From: an uncultured bacterium | GTDB lineage: Bacteria; Verrucomicrobiota; Lentisphaeria; Victivallales; UBA1829 | Assembly (NCBI GenBank): GCA_949297765.1 | Contig: CASFTV010000034.1 | Coordinates: 1 to 35,889, forward strand | Direction of reading: 5' to 3' | Length of the DNA: 35,889 nt | Shown: positions 1-26,214 of the stretch, one piece after another | How the letters are laid out: each line of letters starts with the position of its first letter | Position numbering within the stretch: the stretch's first letter is position 1 | Position numbers and translations under genes: made by a program | Notes under the pieces: generated by a model | Database searches by the model: none | Told to the model about the DNA's origin: nothing | The model's input: the letters and a program-made list of their open reading frames with translations, nothing else

Positions 1-867
1 TCCGAAAATGTCGCAGTTTTCCGCAAGAGAAAAATCGTCCACGCAGTTCACGGAGTTGAAACAGTGAATCGTGTGCGGAACCACATGAAGATGCGGAAAG
101 GTTTCCGGAGAAATTTCGCGAACCATGGAAAGCCGCCATGCCGCTTCCCCGTTCAGGACCTCCAGCTGGAATTCCCTCCAGTCGATGAAATCCGTGATGG
201 TCGAAGGATTGCGCGGAAGTTCCAGTTCATCAAACGAGGAGTAACAGCGTCCCCAGCGGCGGTTCAGCGCATCAATCGAACCGTACCGGAGACGCATCGC
301 CGCTTTGAATTCACGTTCACAGCTGGAACAGTAACAGAGAAGATGGTCGTCGTTGTCCGCGCTCCGCCTCGCGAGATGCCGTTCCGGTTCGTTCCAGACA
401 TCCCAGGCGAGCAGAGCGGGAAACTTCTTGAAATGTTCCAGGGCGGCGCGGAAGAAATTCTGACGTAACTCCTTCATTTCCCGATGGTTGTAACACGGTC
501 CCGGATATCCGCCAAGCTGGCGGCAGAGAAGCGCTTCCGTCCGGACCGGGACCCCGTTCCGGTCCACCATGCGGCAGTCCGGATACCTCTTCTCCGCCCA
601 GACCGGCATGCCGTCGCAGATCAGGTTCAGAATGGCTCGAAGGCCGTTCTTTTCCGCAAGGCGCATCAGCGCATCCAGATCCTCCCAGAAGTAAACGCCG
701 GGCCGGCGCTCGCTCCATCGCCACTGGACCCAGTATTTGACCGTGTTGAAGCCGAGACGCCTCATGTGCTCCAGATCTTGATCCCAAACCTCCGGTTCAG
801 GCGTCGGCGCACGGTAATACTGAGCGCCATATACGAATGGAAAAGAATGTTCGTTTTTCAGCAGCAT
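1..867 (-). CDS. GH42 beta-galactosidase, C-terminus beyond window
   Basis: The reading frame opens at 867 and runs off the window start after 289 residues without a stop, so only the N-terminal TIM-barrel portion is visible. The fold starts with a YGAQYYRAPTPEPEVW stretch typical of glycoside hydrolase family 42, and residues 155-161 read AWDVWNEP, making Glu160 the likely acid/base. A CYCSSC cluster at residues 178-183 matches the structural zinc site of many GH42 enzymes. The nucleophile region lies outside the window. There is no signal peptide, so it probably acts in the cytoplasm on imported galactosides. It is the last visible gene of a leftward operon: an AGGA sequence overlapping the end of the oxidoreductase gene serves as ribosome site and only 7 bases separate the two genes. 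Family assignment is firm; substrate is unknown. Confidence 0.88.
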   Translation of the reverse strand, partial: MLLKNEHSFPFVYGAQYYRAPTPEPEVWDQDLEHMRRLGFNTVKYWVQWRWSERRPGVYFWEDLDALMRLAEKNGLRAILNLICDGMPVWAEKRYPDCRMVDRNGVPVRTEALLCRQLGGYPGPCYNHREMKELRQNFFRAALEHFKKFPALLAWDVWNEPERHLARRSADNDDHLLCYCSSCEREFKAAMRLRYGSIDALNRRWGRCYSSFDELELPRNPSTITDFIDWREFQLEVLNGEAAWRLSMVREISPETFPHLHVVPHTIHCFNSVNCVDDFSLAENCDIFG

Positions 868-874
868 GATGAAA

Positions 875-2176
875 TTATCCTAATTTTGCACCTTGACGAA
901 TCAAATTTTTCCGGATTTGAATCCCATCAAGTTTCATTGGAGAGCAATTCCGACGGACCGCTTCTGCGGCCCCCATTCCCGCCGCCTGCCCGATGGAACA
1001 AACGACCGGCATAATACGGGAACTGGAATGCAGCTGATGATCCAGAGAAATCGCTCTGCACCCGATCAGAAGATTCCGGCATTTCAGAGGAATCAGGGTT
1101 CGAAAACTCAATTCATAAAATTCATTTTCCGGCAAATGAACTTCCTTTACACTTTTTCCCGCGGCGCTGTGTATATCAATCTGATAATGTACTCTTGCAA
1201 TGGCATCTTCGTATTTCTTTCTGTTGTAAAAATCCTCAACCGTCTGATAGAGCATTCCCCGGACTCTCCGGCTTTCCCGCACGCCGATTTGCTGAGCCAT
1301 TGAATGCAACCTGGCATTGGCACAGCCTGGAACATGTTTCCTGAAAAAGGTCAGATATTCGCGAATCTGGGAGTGACATTGCAGAGTTGCTTCAGAAAGT
1401 TCTCGTCCATTCAACGGATTTTTCCTGCCAACCCGGGTCGTATTAAAATGCAGAACGGTTGGATCCTCCGTCAGGAAAAACTGGATGTCCGAACGAAGAC
1501 AATGAATTTCTCCAGACTCCTGCGCCTGATGAAACAGTGCCGTCAGTTTCTCATGGGATGGAAACAGAATTGGAAGAATTCCGGAAAGTTTAAATCCGCA
1601 GCTCATAGGCTGGACATCTCCGTTCTCATCTCCGAACTCGCAAATACAGCCGGCCGACGCTGCAACATCCGCATCTCCGGTTGAATCAATATAACACTGG
1701 GCGGAAATCTCTGTAAAACCTGATTTCGTCAGGAAACGGCAGCTTTTGACAGATTCGTTTTCTGTACACGCTTCTGCAAAAGTATATCCGTAAAGGATTT
1801 CCACTCCGGCTTCAAGACAAAGGTCTTCCAATGCCAAAGCGGAAATATCTTTGCTGATAATGCAGGTATTGTAATCCCGCATGTCTTCGTCAAATTCCGG
1901 AAGCCGGGAATGCTCCGGCAGAAGACTCCACATCTTTCGCGACCAATCCACATACAGCGGCGCATCCAGCGCAGTATGATTTTGAGCATTGGCCATGAAA
2001 GGCGAAACTTCCCCTACACTTGACATTCCACCAAGGACGCCATAGCGTTCCGCAAGAATCACGGAGGCTCCGCATCTGGCCGCCATGACCGCGGCAGAGA
2101 CTCCGCCCGGACCTCCGCCAATGACAAGAACATCACATTTCAAAGAGTCTTCTGTTGTGCTGTTTGCAAAACTCAT
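875..2176 (-). CDS. FAD-dependent oxidoreductase (FAD_oxidored family)
   Basis: A 433-residue protein with an N-terminal dinucleotide-binding beta-alpha-beta unit: residues 14-25 read CDVLVIGGGPGG, followed about 20 residues later by an acidic residue (LAER) and by GVLGGMSS, as in the FAD_oxidored family. The C-terminal part contains GCRAISLDHQLHSSSRIMP and CSIGQAAG, the second FAD-contacting segment of this family. No signal peptide is visible. Its start ATG overlaps the stop of the upstream GH28-like gene by four bases (ATGA), so the two are translationally coupled, and it precedes a GH42 gene. Family members are common in polysaccharide-degradation clusters of Lentisphaerota, Planctomycetes and Bacteroidetes, where a role in oxidising sugars or sugar acids is usually presumed. 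The substrate here cannot be read from the sequence. Confidence 0.85.
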   Translation of the reverse strand: MSFANSTTEDSLKCDVLVIGGGPGGVSAAVMAARCGASVILAERYGVLGGMSSVGEVSPFMANAQNHTALDAPLYVDWSRKMWSLLPEHSRLPEFDEDMRDYNTCIISKDISALALEDLCLEAGVEILYGYTFAEACTENESVKSCRFLTKSGFTEISAQCYIDSTGDADVAASAGCICEFGDENGDVQPMSCGFKLSGILPILFPSHEKLTALFHQAQESGEIHCLRSDIQFFLTEDPTVLHFNTTRVGRKNPLNGRELSEATLQCHSQIREYLTFFRKHVPGCANARLHSMAQQIGVRESRRVRGMLYQTVEDFYNRKKYEDAIARVHYQIDIHSAAGKSVKEVHLPENEFYELSFRTLIPLKCRNLLIGCRAISLDHQLHSSSRIMPVVCSIGQAAGMGAAEAVRRNCSPMKLDGIQIRKNLIRQGAKLG

Positions 2177-3462
2177 TGCTCACTCTCCCGTTTTTCATGT
2201 TCAAGGCGAAAAACTCTGGAATTTCCATTTCTGCAAACCGCCATTATATCGCGGCAGAAAACCTCCGGTTCTCCATCCAGCCATAACCATGGGATTCCAT
2301 TCTCCGGAGCGAGTTTCGGCGGATTGGGCGCAAGATCAATTTTTCTGCTGCACCATGCTCTTCTGTCCCCTTCTGAAAGCTGCATGTAAATCGTTTCCAG
2401 TTTTACCGAAGATACCGATTGTTTCACGCAGGAAACAATGATTCCGTTTTCCGAACGGATCACAGCATTCCGAAGTGTAATATTCCGGATCGGGGAAGTT
2501 TCCGCAGAGGAACAAATCACAAGCGGTTCTCCTTTTCCCCACCAGAATCCGATATGCAGACGAGTTTCTATTGTTAATCCGTCAAGGGAAATATTCTCGA
2601 TAAACCCGTCTTGTCCTGCAAAGATTGCAATTCCCCGGTTGGATTCCTGGATGATGCAATTCCGAACATGGACATCACGCACTTTTCCCGCTTCAAATCC
2701 AAACCGTAGAGCCGCAGATCTTGACTGAAAGATGCAGTCCGAAATCAAAAACCGTTCACAAACGGCATTGGCATCGGAAATGGACGTGAGAGCAATGCAG
2801 TCGTCCCCGCATTCAAAAAGACAGCCGCGGATAAGAACATCCCGGCAGCCGCAGCAGTGAATGCCGTCATTGTTCGGAATCCGGAGATTGTTTTTCACCC
2901 GGAAATCGTGCAGGCGCAGCGTCGAACAGCGGTCAAACACCAGAGTCCAGGTCGGCGAATCGGCAAATGTGACACCGCGGATCTCCACATTTTCACAGGC
3001 CTGAAAGAAAACCAGCCGGTTCGGACGCAGATCCCGCAGCGCCATTTCATAGTGCGCATCGGAATGCAGCGCCTCGGGGATCCCCTCGCCGATGCAGAGC
3101 TTCCCCGTATCGGCAAACGCGATTCCATTGAAATCAATGCACCCCTCTCCGCAGATGCGGATGTCATGCTCCCCGACCGCATAGATCAGCGGAACCGTAT
3201 GGGAATACAGTTCCCATGCGAACGGATATCTGACATAGTCGCCGATGGAATCCGGTCCGCGGAGAAGAGCGCCGTTCTCCAGTCGGAGCGTGACATGGGA
3301 ACGCAGACGGATGCTCCCGGTCCGGAACACTCCCGGCGGCACAAGAACCGTTCCGCCTCCCGCAGAAGCGCACGCATCAATTGCCGATTGCAGAGCGGAA
3401 GTCTGCAATCGGGGAGAATCCGTCTCCGCGCCATAGTCCAGAATGGAATAAACAGGATTCAT
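2173..3462 (-). CDS. GH28-like right-handed beta-helix glycosidase
   Basis: A 429-residue protein. The chosen start at 3462 (MNPVYSILDYGAETDS) has a GGGAGAA ribosome site; an upstream in-frame ATG at 3513 would add an unlikely Gly-rich leader. The N-terminus shows the pectate-lyase/polygalacturonase signature: LDYGA, then LQSAIDACASAGGGTVLVP. Central repeats resemble a parallel beta-helix, with NNDGIH and GDDCIALTS corresponding to the catalytic NTD and DD motifs of GH28. The GHG motif of classical polygalacturonases is not evident; LRFGFEAGK occupies that region. No signal peptide is visible, so it probably acts on imported oligosaccharides, perhaps uronic-acid containing. It lies 56 bases after the secreted GH-A-like gene and overlaps the oxidoreductase gene by ATGA. 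The fold call is secure; exact specificity is not. Confidence 0.8.
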   Translation of the reverse strand: MNPVYSILDYGAETDSPRLQTSALQSAIDACASAGGGTVLVPPGVFRTGSIRLRSHVTLRLENGALLRGPDSIGDYVRYPFAWELYSHTVPLIYAVGEHDIRICGEGCIDFNGIAFADTGKLCIGEGIPEALHSDAHYEMALRDLRPNRLVFFQACENVEIRGVTFADSPTWTLVFDRCSTLRLHDFRVKNNLRIPNNDGIHCCGCRDVLIRGCLFECGDDCIALTSISDANAVCERFLISDCIFQSRSAALRFGFEAGKVRDVHVRNCIIQESNRGIAIFAGQDGFIENISLDGLTIETRLHIGFWWGKGEPLVICSSAETSPIRNITLRNAVIRSENGIIVSCVKQSVSSVKLETIYMQLSEGDRRAWCSRKIDLAPNPPKLAPENGIPWLWLDGEPEVFCRDIMAVCRNGNSRVFRLEHEKRESEQ

Positions 3463-3518
3463 TGTTCTCTTCTCCCGCAGGCAAGATTCCTCATCCGGGC
3501 CCCCCCCGACCACGAATC

Positions 3519-7052: not shown

Positions 7053-7772
7053 TTAATTTCCCACACCCGCGTAAAAGATTTTCCAGCGAACGAGATCTCC
7101 GGTGGAAAATTTGTATCGGCACTGTGCGTGATTCAGATAGGCCCCATGCCCATCCATATAAATCAGATTGATTCCTCCGGAATGGCGGAACCAGTACGGA
7201 CGTTCGGCAGCCGTACACTCCTCATACAGACGCGGACCATATCCCCAGGCGGCGCTGTCCCATGTCGGACGGGAAAGATAATCAAGCGCCATTGCGGTCT
7301 CCGTCGGATACTTTGCCTTTCCCTTGCGGACCAGCGACTGCTGATTCCAGGCGAACTCCGGATTCCCGACGCAAATATTCAGTCCATACCCTCCGTATGT
7401 GGAAAAATCCGTATATGCGCCGACTCCCGCCTGCAGCCGTCCGACAATCGGACAATGTCGAATCACATTATAGTTTTTTATATACGGATAAATTGTATTC
7501 AACTCCTGTTTTCCATTCCAGTTTCCCTTGTACGCCTCCGATGCGCCGTCGGCAGCCCAGCTCTGACGCCATTTCGGATAATAGTCCCCATTGTCGCCGG
7601 CATAGAAATCCAGTCCGAGCGCAATCTGCTTGAAATTTCCCAGACAAGTGATACTTCTGGCTTTCTCCCGGGCCGCGTTCAGCGCCGGCAGAAGAAGACC
7701 CGCCAGAATCGCGATGATCGCAATTACAACGAGGAGTTCTATAAGGGTGAACTCTGCAATCCGTTTTCTCAT
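7053..7772 (-). CDS. Type II secretion pseudopilin-like protein (prepilin N-methylation, H-X9-DG)
   Basis: A 239-residue protein with a short basic leader (MRKRIAE) followed by [18 protein letters not shown], the class III signal peptide and hydrophobic helix of type IV pilins and type II pseudopilins. The conserved Glu at position +5 after the cleavage site is present. The following [13 protein letters not shown] and [12 protein letters not shown] are typical of the DUF1559-like expansion of Lentisphaerota and Planctomycetes. Near the C-terminus, [15 protein letters not shown] fits H-X9-DG exactly. After processing by a prepilin peptidase (not encoded here) it should sit in the inner membrane or join a pseudopilus. 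It is the first gene of the leftward operon, 42 bases before the giant secreted hydrolase. The cellular role of such solitary pseudopilins is unknown. Confidence 0.9.
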
Positions 7773-9091: not shown

Positions 9092-9862
9092 TCAGGAGGG
9101 ATGCTGTGTCGGCGCTCTTCCCCTCATTCTCTTGTAGAAATGGCTCAGGGAGTAGATGTCGGGGAAGCGGGTCGCCTTTGCGATTTCTCCGATGGTCAGA
9201 GCGGAATATTTCAGGTAATCCTCAATCAGTTCCGCAAGCAGTCCGTCGATGTAGCGTTTGACCGATGTTCCGGCCTTCCGTTCCGGCGCATTCCGCGATT
9301 CACAGAGAAAGCGGTATTTCAACTGCGAAACCGTCAGATTCAGCTCTTCCGCGGCAAGAGAAACATTCACCTCGCGTCCGCGGGAGTGAACCAGATCGTA
9401 AAGACGGGAGAACAGCGGCGATTCCCCGCCTGCGGCGGGAGTCCCCTGAAATACAAAATGCAGAAGATCCATCAGAAGATACTCCAGAAGAAGATTGCGC
9501 TGCAGAACGGAACAGGACCCCGCAAACAGATGTTCCACCTGTCCCGCCACCCACTCGAAGAACGGCTGCGACGCGGAATAGAGGCGGATCTCCCGGGAGA
9601 ACACGGATTCCGCTTCGAATGTAAATTTGAAGGAACAGGTTTCCGTTCCCTCCCCCGAACGGATGAACCGGTGCGGCGTGAGCGGAGGAATCAGGACAAA
9701 CGTCCGGGGCGGAAGCTCCCGACGTTTTCCGCTCCCGTCGCAGATTGCAACCGGCGCTCCGCCCGCCACATATTCCAGCTGCCAGTAGGGATGCGAATGC
9801 TCCCGGTCCGACAGCGACAGATTCACATCGTGCGACAAAAATTTCAACTGCGGCTTTTTCAT
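9092..9862 (-). CDS. AraC family transcriptional regulator
   Basis: A 256-residue protein starting MKKPQLKFLSHDVN at 9862. The N-terminal cupin-like sensor domain has SHPYWQLEYVAGG and PPRTFVLIPPLTPHRF, the typical AraC_binding strands. The C-terminal part carries two helix-turn-helix units, VNVSLAAEELNLTVSQLKYRF and LTIGEIAKATRFPDIYSLSHFYKR. An insertion (about RNAPERKAGTS) lies between them, and the end APTQHPS departs from the usual P-x-x-YR finish. An in-frame ATG 11 codons upstream exists, but its GGAG lies only one base away. The gene diverges from the SGNH/DUF2264/GH42 operon across a 279-base gap with candidate promoters in both directions, and is its most likely regulator. Confidence 0.87.
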   Translation of the reverse strand: MKKPQLKFLSHDVNLSLSDREHSHPYWQLEYVAGGAPVAICDGSGKRRELPPRTFVLIPPLTPHRFIRSGEGTETCSFKFTFEAESVFSREIRLYSASQPFFEWVAGQVEHLFAGSCSVLQRNLLLEYLLMDLLHFVFQGTPAAGGESPLFSRLYDLVHSRGREVNVSLAAEELNLTVSQLKYRFLCESRNAPERKAGTSVKRYIDGLLAELIEDYLKYSALTIGEIAKATRFPDIYSLSHFYKRMRGRAPTQHPS

Positions 9863-9991
9863 GGAAATCCCAAATCTTCCCCATCCTTCCGATAGCATAC
9901 TCCTTTCCGGGGAAAAATCAACCCGTTTCCTCCTTTTGAATCGGAAATCTTTTTCCGTTTCTCCAAAATTCTCCTTTTCCGCAACGAAACA

Positions 9992-10020
9992 GCGATACAT
10001 TATTTTCGCCAAAATGACAA
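9992..10020 (-). promoter_or_regulatory. Candidate promoter of the divergent AraC gene
   Basis: Minus-strand TTGTCA (10015-10020) and TATCGC (9992-9997) are 17 bases apart. The -35 matches consensus at five of six positions, the -10 only weakly. The leader to the start at 9862 would be about 125 bases. Confidence 0.3.
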
Positions 10021-10040
10021 AAAGATTCTCCATTTCATCA

Positions 10041-10068
10041 TTGTATTTTTTCTCTTTTGCAGTATACA
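10041..10068 (+). promoter_or_regulatory. Candidate promoter of the SGNH-to-nitrilase operon
   Basis: TTGTAT (10041-10046) and TATACA (10063-10068) are 16 bases apart, within the AT-rich part of the gap between the divergent AraC gene and the esterase gene. Initiation near 10075 leaves about 67 bases of leader before ATG 10142. Both boxes are imperfect, compatible with activation by the neighbouring AraC protein. Apart from these promoters nothing recognisable lies in the 279-base gap. Confidence 0.35.
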
Positions 10069-10141
10069 GTATCAGAAAACCGGGATTTTGACGGAGAATC
10101 GCACCTTCTCCCGTCCCGCAGCAGAGGAGTGTTCCGGAAAA

Positions 10142-11170
10142 ATGACAAAATACGATCCATTCATGGCTGTCGAAGCCGAACGCGAAGGCAGCGAAACCTG
10201 GCTCACGGCGGACGATCCGCGCTTCCGCCTGGAAGGATTCGCCTTCCGGAATCCGGGAGAACCGTTTTACCGGATGAAAATTTCTGACGCCCTCCCGCCC
10301 GGCGTTCAGGCCCACGCCCGTCTCACCAGCGGAGGCACACTCTGCTTCCGGACCGACACAGCCCGGATCCGGATCCGGGCGCGCGTCCGGGTTCTCAACA
10401 ACGCGGCGGACATCATGACCTACGGACGCATCGGATTCGATCTCTACCGCGACGGCCGCTTCTCCGCCCTCTCCCGGCTCAATTTTGACGAGGTGGAATT
10501 TCCCGTCCACACCTACACCGCAACCCTCCAGACGGAAAGTGACGGCGCTATGCACAGCTACCGTCTCCATTTCCCGCTCTACGCCGAAGTCGAGGCGTTC
10601 GGCATCGCCCTCTCCGACGGAGCCGCATGCGAACCGGAACCGCTCTCCGCCGATCCGCGGCCCATCGTGCTTTACGGGACCTCGATCGAACAGGGGTGCT
10701 GTGCGTCGCGGCCCGGGTGCGCGGTCGGAAATCTTCTCTCCCGCCGCCTGGGACTTCCGCTGCTGAATTTCGGATTCGCCGGAAGCGGAAGAGGAGAACC
10801 AGTTGTCGCGCAAAGACTTGCAGAAATTCCATCTCCACGCATCTATGTTCTTGCCTACGATGCGAATGTGGATCCGGAGCGTCTGGAGCAGACTCTTCCG
10901 GAATTCTGCCGGATTCTCCGCGACGCCCATCCGGAAACACCGATTCTGACCGTGTCGCATCTCCGGATCCCCAATGAGAATCCCGCCTCCGAATGGCGCA
11001 CCCGCCGGACGGCGGCGCACCGGAAAACCGGATGCTGTTTCCTCGACGGACTTTCCATCCTCGGAGAAAACTGGGGAGACTGTTATACGGATCTGGTCCA
11101 TCCGAACGATTTCGGCATGATGCTTTACGCAGACGCTCTTGTCCAGAAAATCGGGGAAATCCTGAAATGA
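10142..11170 (+). CDS. SGNH/GDSL hydrolase with N-terminal GxDLY domain (carbohydrate esterase-like)
   Basis: A 342-residue protein from ATG 10142; a TTG at 10088 would extend it by 18 residues but lacks a ribosome site, whereas GAGGAG precedes the ATG. The N-terminal beta-sandwich contains GRIGFDLYRDGRF (residues 96-107), the GxDLY signature. The C-terminal SGNH domain shows YGTSIEQG with nucleophile Ser181, GFAGSG with block II Gly, YDANVD with Asn242, and DLVHPND with the Asp317/His320 pair. Proteins with these two domains are usually annotated as cytoplasmic or secreted acyl/acetyl esterases; here no signal peptide is visible. It opens a five-gene operon and overlaps the next gene by ATGA. 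A role in removing acetyl groups from imported oligosaccharides fits, but is inference. Confidence 0.87.
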   Translation: MTKYDPFMAVEAEREGSETWLTADDPRFRLEGFAFRNPGEPFYRMKISDALPPGVQAHARLTSGGTLCFRTDTARIRIRARVRVLNNAADIMTYGRIGFDLYRDGRFSALSRLNFDEVEFPVHTYTATLQTESDGAMHSYRLHFPLYAEVEAFGIALSDGAACEPEPLSADPRPIVLYGTSIEQGCCASRPGCAVGNLLSRRLGLPLLNFGFAGSGRGEPVVAQRLAEIPSPRIYVLAYDANVDPERLEQTLPEFCRILRDAHPETPILTVSHLRIPNENPASEWRTRRTAAHRKTGCCFLDGLSILGENWGDCYTDLVHPNDFGMMLYADALVQKIGEILK

Positions 11171-12810
11171 ACCGGAAAACGTATCTTGCAGAACTGGACC
11201 GTGCGCTTCTGTTCGCGGCATCCCGCACCGATTCCGCGGGACGCATGGTCGTGGAAGGGGAAATCGACACAAAGGACTCCGGATGGCTCGTTCTCGGAGG
11301 GACCATCCGGGGAATGGAAGAGGGGTGGAAAATCGGCTCCGCGGATCTGCGCGGCCTCTGTCGCCGATGGACTCTTGCAAGTGTCCGCGTGGACGATGTC
11401 AAAAGCGCATGGACGACCTTTGCCCTCCTTCTCTGCTTCGAATTCGGAAAAGAGGAGTTCCGCGCTCTTTTTCCGCCGGAGGAGATGGAGGAAATCGCCG
11501 CGTTTTTCCGTCAGATTGACATGAAATACCTTCTTGAGGCGTCGCGCAACTACCGGGTGGCCGCCGCCGTCATCGACCTTCTCCGGATCCGCCACGGGTT
11601 CTGCGACACCGCCAGCGTCAATGCCTCGGAGTGCATTCAGTACATGCTCGACGGCTACCTCGGCTGCGGCTTCTTCAACGACGATGACGGACGGGGCGAC
11701 TCCCGCGACAAACGCATCGACGCCTACAGCGCGGAAATCATCGGCCTTCTCCTCCATTACGATGAAATCCACCAGTGGAATTCGCCGTTTCATGACCGGA
11801 TCTTCGCGATTCTCCGGGAATTCTGCAACTTCAATCTCCCGCTCATCGACGCGGATGGCGAGTTCGCCAAATGGGGCCGCTCCCTGCGCGGGGAAGCGGA
11901 AGTCAAAAAACTCTTTCTCTGGGAATTTGCGCAGTCCCGGAATCTGACAGATTCCGGCGATGCGGCCGCGAAACGTCAGTTCGAGTTCTTCCTCAAAACC
12001 GGAATCCGCGCGGACGGCAAAATCGGACGCGACAAAGCCTTCGACTCCGGAATCTGGGATGAATACACCACCCATGTCCAGGCACAGGGATATGGAATCT
12101 ACGGTCTTGCCATGGCGCTTCGTTTCGCCTCCGGCGATCATCCGCCCCGTCCCCTCCCCTCGGAAACGGAAGATTACGTCCGCCATCTTCCCGGTCCCGC
12201 GATCCTCTGCGCGAACGACCATCGCACCGGGGTTCATTACATTCTTCCCGCCGGGAACCGTCTTACGAAAAACATGTTCTTCTGGCACAACCGCATCACG
12301 GGAGAAAACGATGTGGAGGTGGATGTCAGCGCAAAATTCATGCCGATTCCCTACTTCGGACACAAGCTGCCCGCTCCGTATGCCGGATCGGTCATTCCGT
12401 TTCTTCCTATGCTGTACCTGAGCGATTCCTCGCGTCTTGTTCCGCGCAATCTTGATCCGGACTTCTCGGTGGAGGGAAACGCCGTCCTCCGCCGGTTCGA
12501 CTACTGCAGACCGAAGGAATACACGGCGGTGGGAACGCTCCACTTCGACTGCCGGATTCTCTGCCGCCCGGGAGGTGTGGATTTCTCGTTCATATTTGAA
12601 GGCGCTGCGCCGGAAGGAGCGGAACTGCGGATCTGCTTCTGCACGCCCGCCCGGGGACTGAAGCGGCGGATAAAATTCAGCAGAACGCCTCTCCGGGAAT
12701 TTGATGCGGCACTCTCCCCGTCTATTTACGGAAAGGAAACCCGCGGGCATATCTGCTGCTTTTCCCCCTGCAATGATCTGCACTACACATTCGGACTGGA
12801 GAAAATATGA
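11167..12810 (+). CDS. DUF2264-like alpha/alpha-toroid protein
   Basis: A 547-residue protein starting at the ATGA overlap with the esterase stop. The first about 370 residues are helix-rich with evenly spaced aromatic and acidic segments, as in alpha/alpha toroids. YMLDGYLGCGFFNDDDGRGD (about 159-178) and FAKWGRSLRGEAEVKK (about 233-248) resemble the conserved YxxDGxYxDG and GRSLxYR regions of the DUF2264 family. The C-terminal about 170 residues look like a beta-rich domain (GVHYILPAGNRLTKNMFFW, ENDVEVDVSAKFMP). No signal peptide is present. DUF2264 proteins are often found in glycan-utilisation clusters and are suspected glycosidases or lyases, but no activity can be assigned from sequence. 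It is followed by a coupled GH42 gene, again through ATGA. Confidence 0.68.
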   Translation: MNRKTYLAELDRALLFAASRTDSAGRMVVEGEIDTKDSGWLVLGGTIRGMEEGWKIGSADLRGLCRRWTLASVRVDDVKSAWTTFALLLCFEFGKEEFRALFPPEEMEEIAAFFRQIDMKYLLEASRNYRVAAAVIDLLRIRHGFCDTASVNASECIQYMLDGYLGCGFFNDDDGRGDSRDKRIDAYSAEIIGLLLHYDEIHQWNSPFHDRIFAILREFCNFNLPLIDADGEFAKWGRSLRGEAEVKKLFLWEFAQSRNLTDSGDAAAKRQFEFFLKTGIRADGKIGRDKAFDSGIWDEYTTHVQAQGYGIYGLAMALRFASGDHPPRPLPSETEDYVRHLPGPAILCANDHRTGVHYILPAGNRLTKNMFFWHNRITGENDVEVDVSAKFMPIPYFGHKLPAPYAGSVIPFLPMLYLSDSSRLVPRNLDPDFSVEGNAVLRRFDYCRPKEYTAVGTLHFDCRILCRPGGVDFSFIFEGAAPEGAELRICFCTPARGLKRRIKFSRTPLREFDAALSPSIYGKETRGHICCFSPCNDLHYTFGLEKI

Positions 12811-14810
12811 AAAAGGAATTCCTGCACGGAGCAGTCCTTCTGCTCGAAGAGGACGAGACCCGGAAAGGGGTTGAACGGAAATGCGACGGGATGCGCCGTC
12901 TCGGAATGAATACCGCCGTTCTCTGGCCCCCCTGTTTCTACAAAAATGGAAAACGCGACTACTCCGTCCAGAAGATGGTTCTGGACTGCGCGGAAAAAGC
13001 CGGGCTCAAGGTCATTGTCGAACTGACGGGTCAGGTCTCCAATCTGGAGTACCTCCCCGACTGCGACTGGAAGGACGAATACGCCGTTCTCAATCCCGAC
13101 GGCACGCCAGCCCGGATGCAGAACGGCCTCGGCGAAACCAACTACAATCATCCCGAAGTAAAGCGCATTCTGCACCGCTTCCTGACGGAGACACTTGAAA
13201 CCTTCCGGAATCATCCCGCCCTGCTGGCCTGGGATGTCTGGAACGAAACGCATTTCAAATCCTACGACTCCTTCACAATGAAGGAGTTCCGTCAATGGCT
13301 GGAACGGAAATACGGCACGATTGAACGTCTCAACACCGTATGGAAAAAGAGTTACACGGCGTTTGACCAGATCCGGATGGACCCGATCACCTGGGCCTCC
13401 ATCGGCCCCGACTGCGACTGGGAGGAGTTCCGGACCGACAACCTCGCCGCAATCGCGGCGGAATGGACCCGGATCGTCCGGGAAACCGATCCGGATCACC
13501 CTGTCATCGCCGACAATGTCATGAGCAACGCGGTCTGGAGTGAATTCGACCGCGGAACCGATGACTGGAAGCTCGCGGAACAGATTGATCTTCTCGGCCT
13601 CTCCTTCTATCCGAAAACCGGCGGACGCCTCCTCAAGGTCAACGAATCCTGGCTGAGACGCCTCACCTTCGCCGGAGCGTTCTCCGCCGGAAACGGGAAG
13701 TTTCTGATCTCGGAAATGCAGAGTCACTGCTACTCCGAAATCTTTACGGCGGAACGGGTTGCGCCCGATGAACTGCTCGACTGGAATCTGGAAGCTCTCT
13801 TTGAAGGTTCCCAGGGAACCGTCTACTGGAAGTGGGAACCGTTCAAAGCGGGATTCCAGCTTGGAGGACGCGGTCTTGTCCTCGCGGACGGGAGCTTCAG
13901 CAAACGGGCGGCAGCCGTCGCCGAATTCAGCCGGCTGCTGGCGGATTATCCGGATCTTGCGTCGCTCACCCCCGCGAAACGCGCCGCGCTTCTCTACGAC
14001 CGCACCTCCAACTTCACGGTCAAGGCGATCAACAACCGGATCCGCGGAATCATCGGCGACGACCAGTGTGCACAGGCCCGCTTCGGAGTCGCCATGAGCG
14101 CGGCGGAACGGAATCTCCCGCTCGCAGTCCGGACTCCGGACCAGATCCGCCGCGGCGGCCTCGACGGAATCTCCCTTCTCTTTCTGCCCTGTCAGCTGGT
14201 GATGGATCCCCCCCTTGCGGAGGAGCTGATCCGCTTCCTCGAAGCCGGCGGAACGATTGCCGCGAACTGGCCCTGCGGCGACATTTCGTCCGACGGACGC
14301 CTTGCCGAAGATCTGCCCGGCGGTCCCCTCGCCTCCCTCTTCCACGCGCGCCAGACGGACAATCTTCAGGACACCTTCCATGGGGAACCCGTTGAAATTC
14401 AGAAACTTGAACTTCTTTCCAGCGAAACGGAAGTTCTTCTCCGAAGCGATTCCGGCCTTCCGCTCGTCTTGAAGACACGGAGGGGGAAAGGCGTTTTCCT
14501 CTATTTTGCTTCGGCTCTGTGGATCGACCGCTTTCTCCACAACCGCCGGGCGTGTGCCGATGCGTTCTGGTCTCTTCTGCCCGCCGATTCCGCGCCAGTG
14601 AAGGCGGACGTCCCCATTCTCTGCGCATCGGGTGAAGAATATGACTATGTTCTCGTGAACAACATTGAACAACGGCCGGAGTGCGTTCTGGAAACGGACC
14701 GGGAAACGGAACAGATCTTCGGCGCGGGAACCCTTCTAACCAAAAACGGACAACGGATTCTTGCGGGAGCGCGTCACGCGATCCTGCGAATGAGAAAGGA
14801 AAGCAAATAA
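12807..14810 (+). CDS. GH42 family beta-galactosidase-like enzyme
   Basis: A 667-residue cytoplasmic protein. The TIM barrel (about 1-390) contains LLAWDVWNETHF, placing the acid/base at Glu147, and KFLISEMQSH with a probable nucleophile at Glu303. Residues about 393-590 form the class I glutamine-amidotransferase-like trimerisation domain of GH42 (AALLYDRTSN, LFLPCQLVMD, FLEAGGTIAANWPCGD), and a short beta domain finishes the chain. The motif reads NET where most relatives have NEP, as does the GH42 protein at the window start, so the two are divergent paralogues. The CxCxxC zinc cluster of the other copy is absent. The start overlaps the DUF2264 stop and its TAA abuts the isomerase ATG directly. 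A galactoside or galactomannan-derived substrate is plausible. Confidence 0.88.
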   Translation: MKKEFLHGAVLLLEEDETRKGVERKCDGMRRLGMNTAVLWPPCFYKNGKRDYSVQKMVLDCAEKAGLKVIVELTGQVSNLEYLPDCDWKDEYAVLNPDGTPARMQNGLGETNYNHPEVKRILHRFLTETLETFRNHPALLAWDVWNETHFKSYDSFTMKEFRQWLERKYGTIERLNTVWKKSYTAFDQIRMDPITWASIGPDCDWEEFRTDNLAAIAAEWTRIVRETDPDHPVIADNVMSNAVWSEFDRGTDDWKLAEQIDLLGLSFYPKTGGRLLKVNESWLRRLTFAGAFSAGNGKFLISEMQSHCYSEIFTAERVAPDELLDWNLEALFEGSQGTVYWKWEPFKAGFQLGGRGLVLADGSFSKRAAAVAEFSRLLADYPDLASLTPAKRAALLYDRTSNFTVKAINNRIRGIIGDDQCAQARFGVAMSAAERNLPLAVRTPDQIRRGGLDGISLLFLPCQLVMDPPLAEELIRFLEAGGTIAANWPCGDISSDGRLAEDLPGGPLASLFHARQTDNLQDTFHGEPVEIQKLELLSSETEVLLRSDSGLPLVLKTRRGKGVFLYFASALWIDRFLHNRRACADAFWSLLPADSAPVKADVPILCASGEEYDYVLVNNIEQRPECVLETDRETEQIFGAGTLLTKNGQRILAGARHAILRMRKESK

Positions 14811-15884
14811 ATGAACGCGGAAGTTTTTTACCGTCTTGCGCCGAACCGGGTCTGGCGCACCTATCTTGGCGGCGGAACGCTTGATGCGATTTCCGGAGCC
14901 GCCGCACCCGAAGATACCCATTTCCCCGAAGACTGGATTCTTTCCACCACCCGGGCGGTAAATGCCGGACGTGAAACAATCGAGGAAGGTGTCTCTTCCG
15001 TTCTTTCCGACTCCGGCAGAATTCCCCTCACGGAACTGCTGGACCGCTTTCCGGAACAGATCCTCGGAGCGGAACATCTCAAAAAATATGGAAAGCAGAC
15101 CGGATTTCTGCTGAAATATCTGGATTCCTCCATCCGTCTGCATCTTCAGTGCCATCCGACCATTCCGTTCGCGCGGAAATACCTGAATTCCAACTCCGGC
15201 AAAAGCGAAGGATATTACATTCTCGGCATACGGCCGGGATGTGAGGGATACATCTATCTCGGATTCCAGAATCCGCCGACTCCGGAAGAGTTCCGCCGGA
15301 TGATCGCCGAACAGGATATTCCCGCACTGCTCGGCTGTTTTGAGAAAATCCCGGTCCGTCCCGGCGACGCGTTCTACGTCCCAGGCGGCTTCCCCCATGC
15401 CATCGGAGAAGGGGTGTTCATGATCGAAATGATGGAACCGACCGATTTCGCCGTCCGCATCGAATTTGAACGCGGCGGATACCTCCTGCCGGAAAGCGCG
15501 CGTTTCATGAACCGCGGCATCGAGTTTGCCGTTTCCATGTTCGATTTCCAACGCAGATCCGTTGAAACAATCCGCAAAGAACTGTTTCTTGTTCCGGAAG
15601 CCCTGCCGATCGACGGTGCGGGAGAGCGGGTCTCCCTCTTCGACCGCCGGTATACAAACTGCTTCCGCGCGGAAAAGATCACCGTCCGCGGCGAGGCCGG
15701 AGTCCGTCAGAAGGGCTTCCGCGTCCTGATCGTCACGCAGGGAAGCGGATCCCTGCTGGCCGGCGGAAAAACCTGCGAACTGAAACAATATGACCGCATT
15801 CTGATCCCCGCGGCAACAGAGGAGATCCGTTTCCGCACGGAAGAAAAACTGGAAATGGTGGCGGCTCTGCCGCCGGAGGTGTGA
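14811..15884 (+). CDS. Type I mannose-6-phosphate isomerase
   Basis: A 357-residue cupin-fold metalloenzyme. Zinc ligands characteristic of type I phosphomannose isomerases are visible: LHLQCHP gives Gln113/His115, KSEGYYILG gives Glu133, and YVPGGFPHAIG gives His196. GDAFYVPGG and MEPTDFAVRIEF are further family markers. The enzyme interconverts mannose-6-phosphate and fructose-6-phosphate in the cytoplasm. Its ATG follows the GH42 stop with no gap, so the genes are probably coupled. Its place in a hydrolase operon suggests that mannose or a related aldose is released by the neighbouring enzymes. Relatives acting on unphosphorylated aldoses occur in such clusters, so the phosphorylated substrate is not certain. 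I leave the symbol blank because it may be a second, specialised copy. Confidence 0.85.
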   Translation: MNAEVFYRLAPNRVWRTYLGGGTLDAISGAAAPEDTHFPEDWILSTTRAVNAGRETIEEGVSSVLSDSGRIPLTELLDRFPEQILGAEHLKKYGKQTGFLLKYLDSSIRLHLQCHPTIPFARKYLNSNSGKSEGYYILGIRPGCEGYIYLGFQNPPTPEEFRRMIAEQDIPALLGCFEKIPVRPGDAFYVPGGFPHAIGEGVFMIEMMEPTDFAVRIEFERGGYLLPESARFMNRGIEFAVSMFDFQRRSVETIRKELFLVPEALPIDGAGERVSLFDRRYTNCFRAEKITVRGEAGVRQKGFRVLIVTQGSGSLLAGGKTCELKQYDRILIPAATEEIRFRTEEKLEMVAALPPEV

Positions 15885-15886
15885 AG

Positions 15887-16801
15887 ATGTCGAAAATCGT
15901 TGATGTGGCGGCCGTTCATTTCAATGTCAGTGAACGGGGAGATCAGGGACGTGCGGAGGCGATCCGCCAGTTCCGGGAAGCGGAAAACCGTCTCGACGGA
16001 ACCGGAGTCGATCTGGTCGTCACCTGCGAGGGAATGAGCAGTCTCGCCCAGAAGGTCTCGGAAGCCGAATCCCTCGACGCGCCCGGCGAACTGCTCACGA
16101 TGTACCGCGAATTCGCCCTACGAAATGCCTGCACGGTAGCGGGTTCCGTCAAACTTTCCGATGCGGGATCGGTCTTCAACGCACTGGTCTTCATCGCGCC
16201 GGACGGGAGCTTCCCGGGATGGTATGCGAAGAGCTATCCGACTCCGCGGGAGATGGAACGGGGAATCGTTCCGGGGGCGGGAGCGGCCGTCACGGAAACA
16301 CCGGCGGGAAGACTCGGCGGCGTGATCTGCTACGATCTGAATTTCGACACCCTCGCGGAGGAGTACCGCTCTCTCCAGCCGGATATTCTCTGCTTTTCCA
16401 GCATGTTCCACGGCGGACATCTTCAGAACAGCTGGGCGTACCGCGCCCGCTCGTTTTTCGTCGGAGCGGTGAAGGATGCGTGCAGCTCTGTGATCGACCC
16501 GCTCGGCCGGGAAATCGCGGAGAGCTGCTACTACAACCGGATCGCCCGTGCAAGAATCAATCTGGACCGGTTCATCCTGCATCAGGACAGGAACATCGAA
16601 AAGTTTCCGCTGATCCGCCGGAAATACAGAAAGGAGATTCTGATCGACACCAATTCGCGCCTCGGAGTCTCCCTTCTTTACAGCTGCACACCGGAACGGA
16701 CGGCTCGGGAAATCGCAGACGAGTTCGAACTGGTCGGACTGGATTCCCTCCTGAACAGCTCCGCCGAGGAAGCGGACAGAAAACGGATCTCCGGGAACTG
16801 A
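15887..16801 (+). CDS. Nitrilase-superfamily carbon-nitrogen hydrolase
   Basis: A 304-residue protein. ATG 15887 is chosen because GGAGGT lies six bases upstream; a GTG at 15881 is in frame but inside the ribosome site. The Glu-Lys-Cys catalytic triad is clear: VVTCEGMS (Glu48), GWYAKSYPT (Lys115) and GGVICYDLNFD (Cys148). Members of this superfamily cleave amides, carbamoyl amines or nitriles in the cytoplasm. The position at the end of a glycan operon suggests an amide-bearing sugar derivative, though the substrate is not evident. After the catalytic core there is a tail of about 60 residues (about 245-304) that I do not recognise. It converges on an AraC gene, with 20 bases between the two stops and no evident terminator. 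Confidence 0.87.
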   Translation: MSKIVDVAAVHFNVSERGDQGRAEAIRQFREAENRLDGTGVDLVVTCEGMSSLAQKVSEAESLDAPGELLTMYREFALRNACTVAGSVKLSDAGSVFNALVFIAPDGSFPGWYAKSYPTPREMERGIVPGAGAAVTETPAGRLGGVICYDLNFDTLAEEYRSLQPDILCFSSMFHGGHLQNSWAYRARSFFVGAVKDACSSVIDPLGREIAESCYYNRIARARINLDRFILHQDRNIEKFPLIRRKYRKEILIDTNSRLGVSLLYSCTPERTAREIADEFELVGLDSLLNSSAEEADRKRISGN

Positions 16802-16821
16802 CGGGAAAAAGTCTTTGCGCT

Positions 16822-17709
16822 TCAGGGAGTTCCGGGGGATCCTGGACGTTCCATCCGGCATTCCTTCCGGAAAAGAAACGGCGTGGTCCCGGTGATGGAG
16901 CGGAAGACCTTGGTCAGATGATTGCCGTCGCAGAACCCGCATTGCAGGGCGATCTCTCCGATTCCGGATGGAGTCTGCTTCAGCAGTTCGCATGCCTTCT
17001 GCACCCGGATCGTCCAGAGATAGCGGTTCGGCGACATTTTCAGAGTCCTCTGGAAATGCCGGTACAGACTGCGTTCCGACATTCCGGAAATCTGACTCAA
17101 GTTCTTCATATCCAAATGCTTTTTATAATTGGCATTCAGATATTCCACCGCCGGCTGGACCAGCCAGAGCTGTTCCTTTTCCTCTTCGGTGGAATCTCCC
17201 CGTGCCAGATAGACCACCAGTTCCGTGAACATCAGCGGTATCATGATGTTTCTCCCGAGCCGTTTCCGATGGGTTTCATAACTCAGGCGCCGGACGAGAT
17301 TCTCACAAAGCGCCCGGTCATTGACGGGAATTCTCAGAACCGGTTTCAGCGGATCACCTCCGTTCCCTTCTCGCGGATATACCTGTTCGATCAGCGGAAG
17401 ATTCGCCCCTTCCAGGAGCGGCAGAGGAGCAGAGGCATCGTAAATCACTACAAGAACTTCAAAATCAACAAGATTCGAAAACGAATCCACTGTTCCGGGA
17501 TGGACAATCAGCACATCCCCTTCCTCCACGGGGAAATAACGCATTCCGACCCGGTGTTCTGCTTTGCCGCGGACAACCAGAATCAGTTCTGAAAATTCAT
17601 GATGCCGGAGTTCGTCCTCCACGACCGGGTCCTGCCCCGGTTCGCGGACCAGAAGTTTTACGGCAAGCGGAAATTTCTCCGGCTGGGGATAGTTCCTGTA
17701 GCGAGCCAT
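16822..17709 (-). CDS. AraC family transcriptional regulator
   Basis: A 295-residue protein. The start at 17709 (MARYRNYPQPEK) has an excellent AAGGAGG site seven bases upstream. The N-terminal cupin sensor contains HHEFSELILVVRGKAEHRVG and YFPVEEGDVLIVHPGT, typical AraC_binding strands that sense a small molecule, usually a sugar. The C-terminal DNA-binding domain (about 190-290) shows HLDMKNLSQISGMSERSLYR as the first helix-turn-helix, and GIGEIALQCGFCDGNHLTKV plus FRSITGTTPFLFRK as the second with its family signature. It diverges from the pseudopilin/isomerase/GH-A-like operon at 17821 and is the likely activator of that locus. It converges with the nitrilase gene of the preceding operon. 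Confidence 0.92.
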   Translation of the reverse strand: MARYRNYPQPEKFPLAVKLLVREPGQDPVVEDELRHHEFSELILVVRGKAEHRVGMRYFPVEEGDVLIVHPGTVDSFSNLVDFEVLVVIYDASAPLPLLEGANLPLIEQVYPREGNGGDPLKPVLRIPVNDRALCENLVRRLSYETHRKRLGRNIMIPLMFTELVVYLARGDSTEEEKEQLWLVQPAVEYLNANYKKHLDMKNLSQISGMSERSLYRHFQRTLKMSPNRYLWTIRVQKACELLKQTPSGIGEIALQCGFCDGNHLTKVFRSITGTTPFLFRKECRMERPGSPGTP

Positions 17710-17789: not shown

Positions 17790-17820
17790 ATGAAGGAAAA
17801 ACAAGATCGGGGAGTTGAGA

Positions 17821-18573
17821 ATGAATCTGAAAAAACGACAGAACCAATTTACGATCATAGAACTTCTTGTAGTAATCTCCATTCTGGCGATTCTCTGTGC
17901 GCTTCTTCTGCCTGCGCTGAACAGTGCGCGGGAGAAGGCGCGGGAAATCGGGTGCATCGGGAATCTGAAACAGCTTGGAGTCGTCTTAAGTTCTTATGCC
18001 GGAGACAATAATGACTGCTACCCGTATGAACAGGACCGACTGGATATTGCAAGAAGAATTTTCCCAATAGTCCTCAATCCGTATTACGGGAAAAAAGCGG
18101 AAGACTGGAATCCGGGCAGAAAAACAACCGGCGCGACCTTCTGTCCTTCCGTTCCGGTGCGGGAAACGGGAACTACTGAAGGATGTGTTGCCAATTACGG
18201 CTTTTCCACCAATCTGTTCCGGGGTAGTTCCATGGATGCACAGCAGGAAACGGTCGGCATCGGGACCATGACCGGAAGCGGAACAGAACGAAAAGCCAAC
18301 CGTCTTTCCAAAGTATATCCGCAGGGGGCGGTCGCGTTCTGTCTCGAAATGACCGAATCCGGAGAGGCGGTTCCCAAAGGAGAAGTGATGATCTATCCGA
18401 ACCGGACCGCAGACAACTGCTGGGTCTCAAGAACCAAAAGCGGCGGCGAGTACATCTCCGTCTATCACCGGAACAATGATCCGATCCTTCAAAGCGGCGG
18501 TTCGGCAAGGCTCCTGCGCAAAAACATCACCCGGATTCTGCTGGACAAGGATACCGCCTGTCCGCTCCCGTAA
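17821..18573 (+). CDS. Type II secretion pseudopilin-like protein
   Basis: A 250-residue protein from ATG 17821, with GGGGAG placed correctly upstream; a TTG at 17815 lies in frame but is less likely. A basic leader (MNLKKRQNQ) precedes [18 protein letters not shown], the class III prepilin cleavage site and helix with Glu at +5. [13 protein letters not shown] and [12 protein letters not shown] follow as in the other two pseudopilins here. At the C-terminus the expected H-X9-DG appears as [15 protein letters not shown], that is H-X9-GG, so the conserved Asp is lost. The protein is first in an operon with an isomerase, a small secreted protein, a giant secreted glycosidase and a HAD phosphatase. 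Membrane or pseudopilus location follows from the helix; function is unknown. Confidence 0.88.
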
Positions 18574-24355: not shown

Positions 24356-24847
24356 ATGCTGACCTTCATGAGACCGATGAAGCGGATCGTTCATGCGTTT
24401 GTCCGGGAGCGGAACCGGCGGATGAGCCGCTACAATTTGACCTCCGCGCAGGTGGATGTGCTGATTCTTCTGCTGCGTGCGCCGGAGGGAGGGGAAATGT
24501 ATCAGAGAAGTATACAGGAGAGGCTCGGGCTTTCCTGCCCGACCGTCAACGGACTTCTGGAGCGTCTGAAGCGGAAAGGATTCATTCGTTTTGAAAAAGC
24601 GGAATCCGATCGGCGGAGGAAAAGAATTGTTCTGACGGAAAAGGGGCGGGAGACGGATGGCATTCTTCAGCCGCTCGGTGCGGAATGGGAAAAGCAGGTG
24701 ACGCAGAATTTCTCGGATGCGGAACTCCTCGTTCTCGGGCAGCTGATGCGGAAGCTGGAAGCCAATCTGAAGGAAAACGCGGAGCGGGAGAATTCCGACG
24801 GGGAAAAGCGTTCCGGCGGATTTTCTTTTTCTTTGGAGAGGGATTGA
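24356..24847 (+). CDS. MarR family transcriptional regulator
   Basis: A 163-residue protein from ATG 24356, with GGGAG six bases upstream; an in-frame ATG at 24302 lies inside the promoter region and is unlikely. The winged-helix core is typical of MarR: LTSAQVDVLILLLRAPEGGE, then IQERLGLSCPTVNGLLERLKRKGFIRFEKAESDRRRKRIVLTEKG in outline, with the DxRxxR-like wing motif (SDRRRKRIVLT). It is expected to bind DNA as a dimer and to be released by small aromatic or drug-like ligands. Its TGA shares one base with the ATG of the MATE exporter gene, so the pair forms a classic self-regulated efflux unit. The palindrome at 24264-24287 is a candidate operator. Confidence 0.9.
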   Translation: MLTFMRPMKRIVHAFVRERNRRMSRYNLTSAQVDVLILLLRAPEGGEMYQRSIQERLGLSCPTVNGLLERLKRKGFIRFEKAESDRRRKRIVLTEKGRETDGILQPLGAEWEKQVTQNFSDAELLVLGQLMRKLEANLKENAERENSDGEKRSGGFSFSLERD

Positions 24848-26214
24848 TGAGTTCCACCCGGATTGTTCGCGACCTGACCTCGGGAAATGTCGCGCGCACG
24901 ATGATTTTCTTTGCCGCTCCGCTGTTCTTTTCCAGTCTTCTTCAGACGACCTACAATATGGTGGATATGATTATTATCGGTCATTTTGTCGGGAAAGAGG
25001 GACTGGCCGCGGCGGCGATCGGGGGCGATGTCCTGCTGTTTGCCTCTTTCGTTGCCATGGGATTCGCCAATGCGGGGCAGGTCATCATCTCGCAGTTCAT
25101 CGGGGCGGGACAGCATGACAAGGTGCGCCGTCTCATCGGGACGATGTTCACCGTGCTCGGAGGATGTGCCGTGCTGATCGGAGCGTTCGGACTGTTTTTC
25201 CAGGACACGATTCTGCGATGGATCAACACGCCGCCGGAAGCGCTGGAATACACGCGTTCGTATACCGATGTCTGTCTGACCGGGCTGGTCTTTATTTACG
25301 GATACAATGTGGTCGGAGCCGTTCTGCGCGGAATGGGGGATTCCCGGCATCCGTTTTACTTCATTGCGCTGGCGACGGAGTGCAATGTGTTTCTGGATCT
25401 TCTGTTTGTCGTCGGATTCCGGATGGCGATTTTCGGAGCCGCTTTGGCGACGGTGATCAGTCAGGCGGTCAGTTTCTGCTGGGCGGTTGTGTTTCTGTAT
25501 CGGCGCAGGTTCGAGTTCGGCTTCGATTTCAGGCTCCGGAGTTTCGCGGTCGACCGGGAAGTGCTTCTGCCGTTTCTGAAACTGGGGATTCCGATGATGA
25601 TTCAGGGGGCCTCCATCGACTTTTCCAAGCTGTTTGTCAATTCGTGGATCAACTCCTACGGGGTGCTTGCCACCGCGATGACCGGAATCGGAAACAAGGT
25701 CGGCAGCGTGGTCAACGTGGTCAACGTGGCGCTCTCCACGGCGGGCAGTTCCATGATCGGCCAGTGCATCGGAGCGGAAAAATACGACAGGGTTCCGAAG
25801 GTGCTGAAGGTCTCGTTCAGCATCAATCTTGCGATCTCGGCGGGGATGGGAATTGTCACCGTGCTGTTTCCGTCCGCGGTGTTCGGGATTTTTACCGATG
25901 ATGCCGAAGTGCTGAAACTGGCGCTGACCTACATTCCCGTGGCTCTGCTTCTGTTTGCGGGCAGCGCACTGCGTCCGCCGATGAGTTCGCTGATCAACGG
26001 AAGCGGGAATTTCAAGCTCAATCTTGCGGTGGCGCTTCTGGATGGAGTTTTCATGCGGATCGGTCTTTCGGTCTTGCTGGGTCTGGTCCTCGGATTCGGG
26101 GTCTACGGGTTCTGGTACGGAAACGCGCTGGCGAGTTTCACGCCGTTCGTCATCGGCGGAGTCTATTTCCTGAGCGGACGCTGGCGGACAAGAAAGTACA
26201 TCATCCGCGGATAG
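24847..26214 (+). CDS. MATE family multidrug/metabolite exporter
   Basis: A 455-residue integral membrane protein with about twelve hydrophobic segments. The N-terminal RTMIFFAAPLFFSSLLQTTYNMVDMIIIG matches, in outline, the first helix and MVDxxxVG motif of the MATE family. The repeated half has FLKLGIPMMIQGASIDFSKLF, a mirror of the first. NGSGNFKLNLAVALLDGVFMR-like text matches the conserved GxGxT region before helix 11. It is expected in the cytoplasmic membrane, exporting cationic drugs or metabolites using Na+ or H+. It starts on the last base of the marR stop codon (TGATG). Its presence between glycan loci does not by itself imply a role in sugar transport. No classical terminator is clear after it. 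Confidence 0.92.
   Translation: MSSTRIVRDLTSGNVARTMIFFAAPLFFSSLLQTTYNMVDMIIIGHFVGKEGLAAAAIGGDVLLFASFVAMGFANAGQVIISQFIGAGQHDKVRRLIGTMFTVLGGCAVLIGAFGLFFQDTILRWINTPPEALEYTRSYTDVCLTGLVFIYGYNVVGAVLRGMGDSRHPFYFIALATECNVFLDLLFVVGFRMAIFGAALATVISQAVSFCWAVVFLYRRRFEFGFDFRLRSFAVDREVLLPFLKLGIPMMIQGASIDFSKLFVNSWINSYGVLATAMTGIGNKVGSVVNVVNVALSTAGSSMIGQCIGAEKYDRVPKVLKVSFSINLAISAGMGIVTVLFPSAVFGIFTDDAEVLKLALTYIPVALLLFAGSALRPPMSSLINGSGNFKLNLAVALLDGVFMRIGLSVLLGLVLGFGVYGFWYGNALASFTPFVIGGVYFLSGRWRTRKYIIRG

Follow-up and report, generated by a model that had tools for sequence, protein, structure and literature searches.

The window analysed here comprises 35,889 nucleotides (contig CASFTV010000034.1 of assembly GCA_949297765.1, forward strand) from an uncultured bacterium of the order Victivallales (Verrucomicrobiota; Lentisphaeria). 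Between positions 10142 and 16801 it carries a tightly packed operon, of which the second gene encodes a distant relative of the DUF2264 (GH154) family and the last a nitrilase-superfamily amidase. A check of the open reading frames (ORFs) in this interval located five genes on the same strand, as follows:

10142..11170, + strand: putative cytoplasmic GxDLY plus SGNH (Lipase_GDSL_3) esterase, from Pfam matches
11167..12810, + strand: divergent DUF2264/GH154-like protein, predicted to fold as an alpha/alpha toroid plus beta-sandwich
12807..14810, + strand: GH42 beta-galactosidase-family hydrolase, from Pfam and matching solved GH42 structures
14811..15884, + strand: class I mannose-6-phosphate-isomerase-like (MPI-like) sugar isomerase, matched by TIGR00218 and by 1qwr
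15887..16801, + strand: nitrilase-superfamily amidase (CN_hydrolase), from Pfam, with an alternative GTG start at 15881

An earlier note on this DNA had described the five genes as overlapping by ATGA or lying no more than two bases apart, and their products as devoid of signal peptides, and both descriptions held. The coordinates and junction bases revealed two successive ATGA overlaps, then a TAA stop directly followed by an ATG start, and finally, depending on the start chosen for the nitrilase, either a GTGA overlap (GTG at 15881) or a 2-base gap (start at 15887). Inspection of the five N-termini by eye and a simple hydrophobicity window agreed in finding no signal peptide on any of them; as a positive contrast, the PL8 lyase of a related locus, L065 (loci are designated by L numbers and genomes by G numbers), did show one.

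The product of the first gene matched PF14606 (107.3 bits, E 1.5e-30) and PF14607 (58.6 bits, E 7.7e-16), passing the cut-off of 27 that applies to each, and on these family matches is probably an O-acyl esterase. In L065 and L066 the same genes are followed by GxDLY-SGNH orthologues that share 45-47% identity with it. L080 and L077 encode GDSL-type proteins from other subfamilies, the one in L077 being fused to a fucosidase domain. The GH42 protein scored 91.5 bits against a Pfam cut-off of 21 (E 9.2e-26), and its residues E147 and E303, which we take to be the catalytic glutamates, were invariant in 7/7 loci. The MPI-like protein was placed just above the Pfam cut-off of 27 by its cupin domain (27.3 bits) and missed the NCBIfam manA equivalog TIGR00218 (62.8 bits versus a cut-off of 116.2). 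Q113, H115, E133 and H196, presumably the metal ligands of a class I mannose-6-phosphate isomerase, were invariant in 6/6 proteins, with the two His and the Glu aligning with 1qwr.

The nitrilase of the window scored 54.5 bits with the Pfam CN_hydrolase model, above cut-off, and far below the cut-offs of the NCBIfam equivalogs. Its E48-K115-C148 triad was invariant (7/7), and its predicted model, with a predicted local distance difference test (pLDDT) score of 90.5, matched the amidase 6ypa at a VIA Z of 28.3. The fold and the E-K-C triad are common to this protein and to the superfamily amidases PH0642, Nit2 and N-carbamoylputrescine amidase, from which it differs in sequence (~18-24% identity) and in the placement of its gene within a glycan operon. 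Nitrilases linked to the DUF gene fell into two types that share 24-25% identity (alignment A5) and both keep the triad: a shorter one, found in the window and in L077 (45% identical to each other), and a longer one of ~400 residues with an N-terminal extension, found in G001, G002, G003 and L083, the G003 copy covering just 243 residues before its contig ends. Away from DUF loci, the closest homologue, at 53% identity, followed a heparinase II/III-like gene in L071. Keyword literature searches retrieved no glycan-linked nitrilase in print.

The DUF protein itself stands at the edge of its family. It scored 16.4 bits with PF10022 (DUF2264), below the curated cut-off of 25, and a whole-genome family search of the window's genome yielded no DUF2264 match at an E-value of 0.001; among its relatives, the protein of L066 passed the cut-off (28.6 bits) and that of L065 gave no match. 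Relatives ~56% identical to it were present in 3/3 congeneric genomes searched, and none was found in the other 57 of the 61 genomes searched. A profile built from eight members of this clade matched 6/197 genomes of the class, including the window's own; the clade also occurs in two further records. A scan of 84,980 species genomes, in which the window's own record was not among the hits, returned seven clade loci, from a goat jejunum Victivallales (L077), three congeners of the window genome (L078, L079 and L081), a roe deer colon Lentisphaeria (L083), bacterium SZUA-421 (L080) and a 3.2-kb contig of a Spirochaetia (L082). L065 and L079, L066 and L081, and L067 and L078 are pairwise identical places, each fetched twice. 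Gut metagenome-assembled genomes of Victivallales/Lentisphaeria predominate among the relatives. We regard the clade as a rare, divergent branch of the DUF2264 family. Five sub-cut-off PF10022 loci of the phylum (L114-L118) were considered as further members and rejected, as they matched neither the clade profile nor the nitrilase profile; the canonical regions used as a control below do not include them.

The earlier note had treated DUF2264 as a family without a function, which no longer holds. According to PMC12269599, CAZy family GH154, which corresponds to canonical DUF2264 and had been classed as a glycosidase family, was reclassified in 2025 as a uronate dehydratase family: BcGDH dehydrates terminal glucuronate for GH88, and BT3677, the founder of GH154, is also a dehydratase. 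In the mechanism proposed there, Y229 serves as the base, R285 assists and Y289 is the acid. Ten BcGDH alanine mutants, these three among them, are reported to have been inactive in an assay the substrate of which the authors call a poor one. The canonical DUF2264 protein of congener G002 matched 8oi4 (E 5e-89), 9o4u (E 4e-87) and 9nwf (E 3e-86), the last two of which are solved beta-D-glucuronate dehydratases. As a separate observation, genome G158 (L139, L162-L165) carried nine DUF2264 matches, one of them below cut-off, so that the uronate dehydratase family is expanded there.

Searching the PDB by sequence with the DUF clade profiles gave no credible match. A local hhalign comparison of the clade with 18 canonical DUF2264 proteins covered 281 columns, including the motif region, at an E-value of 6e-5 and a probability of 65%. 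Residue correspondences with BcGDH were taken from this alignment, leaving out E74 and R78, which lie outside its confident part. The equivalents of N177, Y229, R285 and Y354 were retained in 8/8 clade proteins as N128, Y187, R238 and Y300. In contrast, the position of Y289, the proposed acid, was occupied by glycine (G242) in 8/8 clade proteins and by tyrosine in 18/18 canonical ones, the GRS motif that immediately precedes it aligning without gaps. Further changes affected W178 (Tyr in 8/8), F181 (Ala in 8/8) and N176 (Arg in 7/8, Lys in 1/8).

The AlphaFold model of the window protein (pLDDT 83.9, predicted template modelling score 0.87) displayed an alpha/alpha toroid followed by a beta-sandwich. 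Its first domain was nearest to 8oi4, 9o4u and 9nwf, with VIA Z values of 21.2, 19.9 and 19.4, respectively, over 326 aligned residues (root-mean-square deviation 4.1-4.4). Human dermatan sulfate epimerase 1 (6hzn) aligned over as many as 477 residues (Z 17.1), and the top Foldseek rows, 3afl, 6hzn, 8khw and 8r71, comprised the PL15 enzyme Atu3025, dermatan sulfate epimerase and glycosaminoglycan lyases. Thus, the clade protein has in common with PL8, PL15 and PL33 lyases and with dermatan sulfate epimerase 1 a two-domain architecture of toroid and beta-sandwich, but it is only 9-12% identical to them and has no lyase family among its Pfam matches. Toroid fold, remote profile similarity and four retained residues likewise connect it with GH154 and BcGDH, from which it is set apart by the glycine at the Y289 position, by a WHNR loop in the second, beta domain that is invariant across the clade, and by the lack of a GH88/GH105 partner at its loci. 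Two conserved stretches, GFFNDDD (near 170-176) and TKNMFFWHNRITGEND (367-387), were the sole segments modelled with pLDDT below 50; they might represent mobile active-site loops.

Conservation of the neighbourhood was read from tblastn matches and stop-to-stop ORFs at seven informative loci, including the window; L082, where the contig ends inside the DUF gene, was set aside. GH42 adjoined the clade DUF gene in 7/7 of these loci. An MPI orthologue (54-63% identity) was present in 6/7, lying ~3 kb beyond GH42 in L083, and a nitrilase was found near the DUF gene in 6/7. In the window and its congeners it is positioned 3′ of the MPI gene; in L077 it comes first, its junction being an overlap. 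The proposal of a cytoplasmic sugar module made in the earlier note is thereby borne out, and the conserved co-occurrence elsewhere that it had suggested looking for does exist: counting the window, the link is present at six of seven loci, in three arrangements and with two dissimilar nitrilase types. Of the two findings that the note had named as refuting its idea, the lack of a conserved neighbourhood is thereby answered.

As a control, we examined the surroundings of canonical DUF2264 genes in 42 regions drawn from a sample of the phylum (727 kb in total, mostly ~8 kb on each side of the gene, some shorter at contig ends, and several from G158), of which 39 displayed the GRSxxYR motif. The nitrilase profile used for this purpose, which recovers 23/23 known loci, found no nitrilase in any of the 42 regions, and GH42 and SGNH genes were likewise each missing from all 42. 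MPI-like genes occurred in 4/42 (L132, L150, L151 and L161; three strong matches and one weak), so that the isomerase link extends more widely than the clade. The difference for the nitrilase, 6/7 clade loci versus 0/42 canonical regions, corresponded to a Fisher p-value of 5e-7, which rises to 2.6e-4 when the genus is treated as a single case; both values serve only as a guide because the loci are related. CN_hydrolase genes were rare in the seven clade genomes (31 genes in 28.7 Mb), with 0.017 expected within 16 kb. Together, the contrast with the control and this rarity argue that the nitrilase link is real and specific to the clade. The unusual association of an amidase with DUF2264 that had drawn attention to the locus therefore stands for the divergent branch and falls for DUF2264 at large.

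Hints of an acidic substrate came from three loci: L065 encodes, between the nitrilase and the esterase, a PL8 lyase that carries a signal peptide, a heparinase II/III-like gene is present beside the nitrilase homologue of L071, and a sulfatase in L080. These genes support our reading of the glycan as acidic. PL8 was also considered as the enzyme defining the substrate, and rejected for its occurrence at a single locus. Apart from this question, a melibiase-like protein (~670 residues where complete) was encoded in L070, L071, L076 and L080 along with MPI, GH42, nitrilase or DUF-clade genes.

The explanation we favour, to which we assign a probability of about 40%, is that the operon specifies a cytoplasmic module for an imported oligosaccharide that is acylated, bears uronate and carries an amide, and that the DUF protein performs an elimination-type reaction on it. 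We infer the substrate, its amide, the reaction and the order of the steps as follows. The SGNH enzyme would strip O-acyl groups, GH42 would take off a beta-galactoside-type sugar, the MPI-like enzyme would isomerise a freed sugar, and the nitrilase would cleave the substrate amide, be it a uronic acid carboxamide or an N-acyl/N-carbamoyl group. The DUF protein would abstract the C5 proton of a uronic acid, with Tyr187 as base and Arg238 kept. Since the base is retained and the acid missing, the reaction suggested is a C5-C4 elimination in which something other than water leaves or a different acid is used. The space freed by Gly242 in place of the general acid could admit an O4-linked sugar, and the protein may then eliminate a glycosyl group, in the manner of a lyase, rather than water. 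The role of the acid could fall to a single Tyr acting as both base and acid, or be assisted by the WHNR loop of the second domain. In PMC11921355, single-Tyr elimination is proposed for lyases of families PL5, PL15 and PL17. A bolder proposal, that the clade is a new family on a uronate dehydratase scaffold, in which a glycine where the acid Tyr stood leaves the O4 side open and makes the enzyme an exo-acting oligouronate lyase for uronamide or otherwise amidated oligosaccharides, with the carboxamide freed by a glycan-directed branch of nitrilases, strikes us as quite improbable.

Several observations weigh against a module of this kind. No MPI gene was found at L077 and no nitrilase at L080, in each case one of the seven informative loci, and the nitrilase of L083 is divergently transcribed from the opposite strand. 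PL8 is confined to one locus, L065. The substrate amide is deduced from a single gene, that of the nitrilase, by its triad intact in 7/7 and its nearest structures being amidases. The dehydratase mechanism as known needs the tyrosine that the clade has lost, and the remote match between clade and canonical DUF2264 profiles is modest. Cellobiose 2-epimerase (Z 19.2) and GH105 (Z 18.8) follow close behind the GH154 structures, so that the chemistry of the DUF protein could differ. Finally, PF07470 (GH88/GH105) had no match inside the clade loci, and matched in 3/7 clade genomes while being absent from 4/7.

Among the alternatives, it is rather unlikely that the nitrilase operates outside the sugar pathway, in nitrogen salvage from a free amide or in metabolite repair, and is co-located through shared conditions. 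Its nearest solved relatives do act on small amides (PH0642 with glutaramide, Nit2, carbamoylputrescine amidase), and L080 manages without a copy near the DUF gene; yet the association recurs in six loci with two dissimilar types, and the closest homologue away from DUF genes also sits in a polysaccharide-lyase locus (L071). We regard it as unlikely that the DUF protein is simply a dehydratase of the usual GH154 type that acts on a saturated uronate at the non-reducing end, with a neighbouring residue as acid and the nitrilase working on a side group. The fold, the four retained residues and the presence of two GH88 genes elsewhere in the window's genome would suit such an enzyme, but the strict replacement of the tyrosine by glycine would not, nor would the inactivity of the Y289 alanine mutant of BcGDH reported in PMC12269599. 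The missing GH88 partner at the locus, and its non-detection in four of seven genomes, also speak against it. We dropped this last point as a decisive argument: the congeners lacking PF07470 have genomes 89-92% complete, and G002 contains a canonical DUF2264 gene in a genome with no PF07470 match, so that the absence of GH88/GH105 does not discriminate. That the DUF protein is instead a sugar epimerase or isomerase, or a toroid enzyme resembling unsaturated uronyl hydrolases, with chemistry unrelated to GH154, is doubtful, for despite the nearby epimerase and GH105 scores, the invariant Asp residues of the GFFNDDD loop and the possible need for a substitute in the genomes lacking PF07470, GH154 structures rank first by Z and the profile match, which takes in the motif region, retains N, Y and R.

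The known systems closest to the operon include the chondroitin pathway of Bacteroides caccae PUL25, which combines a lyase with a DUF2264-type enzyme for uronate-bearing glycans. PUL25 consists of PL35-GH88-GH109-GDH, and the available portion of PMC12269599 names no amidase in it; the window module differs in having GH42, MPI-like, SGNH and nitrilase enzymes and in being cytoplasmic. A clade that has kept the proposed base, lost the proposed acid and travels with GH42 and an amidase offers a natural test of the GH154 dehydratase mechanism and is a likely source of new activity. A nitrilase tied to glycan loci would suggest that acidic sugars carrying amides serve as substrates in the gut.

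The operon is flanked by the following features:

9092..9862, − strand: AraC-type regulator, divergent from the operon, its C-terminal helix-turn-helix region matching AraC-family models weakly
9863..10141, + strand: intergenic region expected, by position only, to hold the operon promoter
16822..17706, − strand: AraC regulator of RhaS/RhaR-like type that converges on the end of the operon, with NCBIfam matches below cut-off

The first regulator is probably the local regulator of the operon; in both L065 and L066 the DUF gene has an AraC gene next to it, and in L083 one lies two genes off, beside the nitrilase. Membership of the second in the module is uncertain, and its homology to AraC genes of the fetched loci was no more than weak. 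Scans of 9800-17000 gave no support for the operon boundaries, with 2 promoter sites versus 1.7 in shuffled sequences and 9 terminator sites versus 10.2. No sugar importer was found among the annotated window genes, which include a MatE-family exporter-type protein at 24685-26214; the sole hint of import was the gene directly before the DUF gene in L082, which by eye resembles an ABC sugar-binding lipoprotein.

Elsewhere in the window, a second packed sugar operon occupies positions 1-3513 on the − strand and consists of a cut-off ORF (1-867), 29.8% identical to the GH42 protein of the five-gene operon, a FAD_oxidored gene (875-2176) and a GH28 gene (2173-3513). A homologue of the FAD_oxidored protein lies beside an MPI orthologue in L068, together with a PFL-like glycyl radical enzyme and a radical SAM protein. 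The gene at 29145-32252, beside a GH20-like gene (27251-29125), encodes a 1035-residue protein that has a hydrophobic N-terminus and matches no Pfam family. Prepilin-like proteins of the N_methyl/DUF1559 type are interspersed between sugar genes at 7053-7772, 17815-18573 and 32249-32974, and proteins of the same type were also present in L065, L069, L071, L075 and L083.

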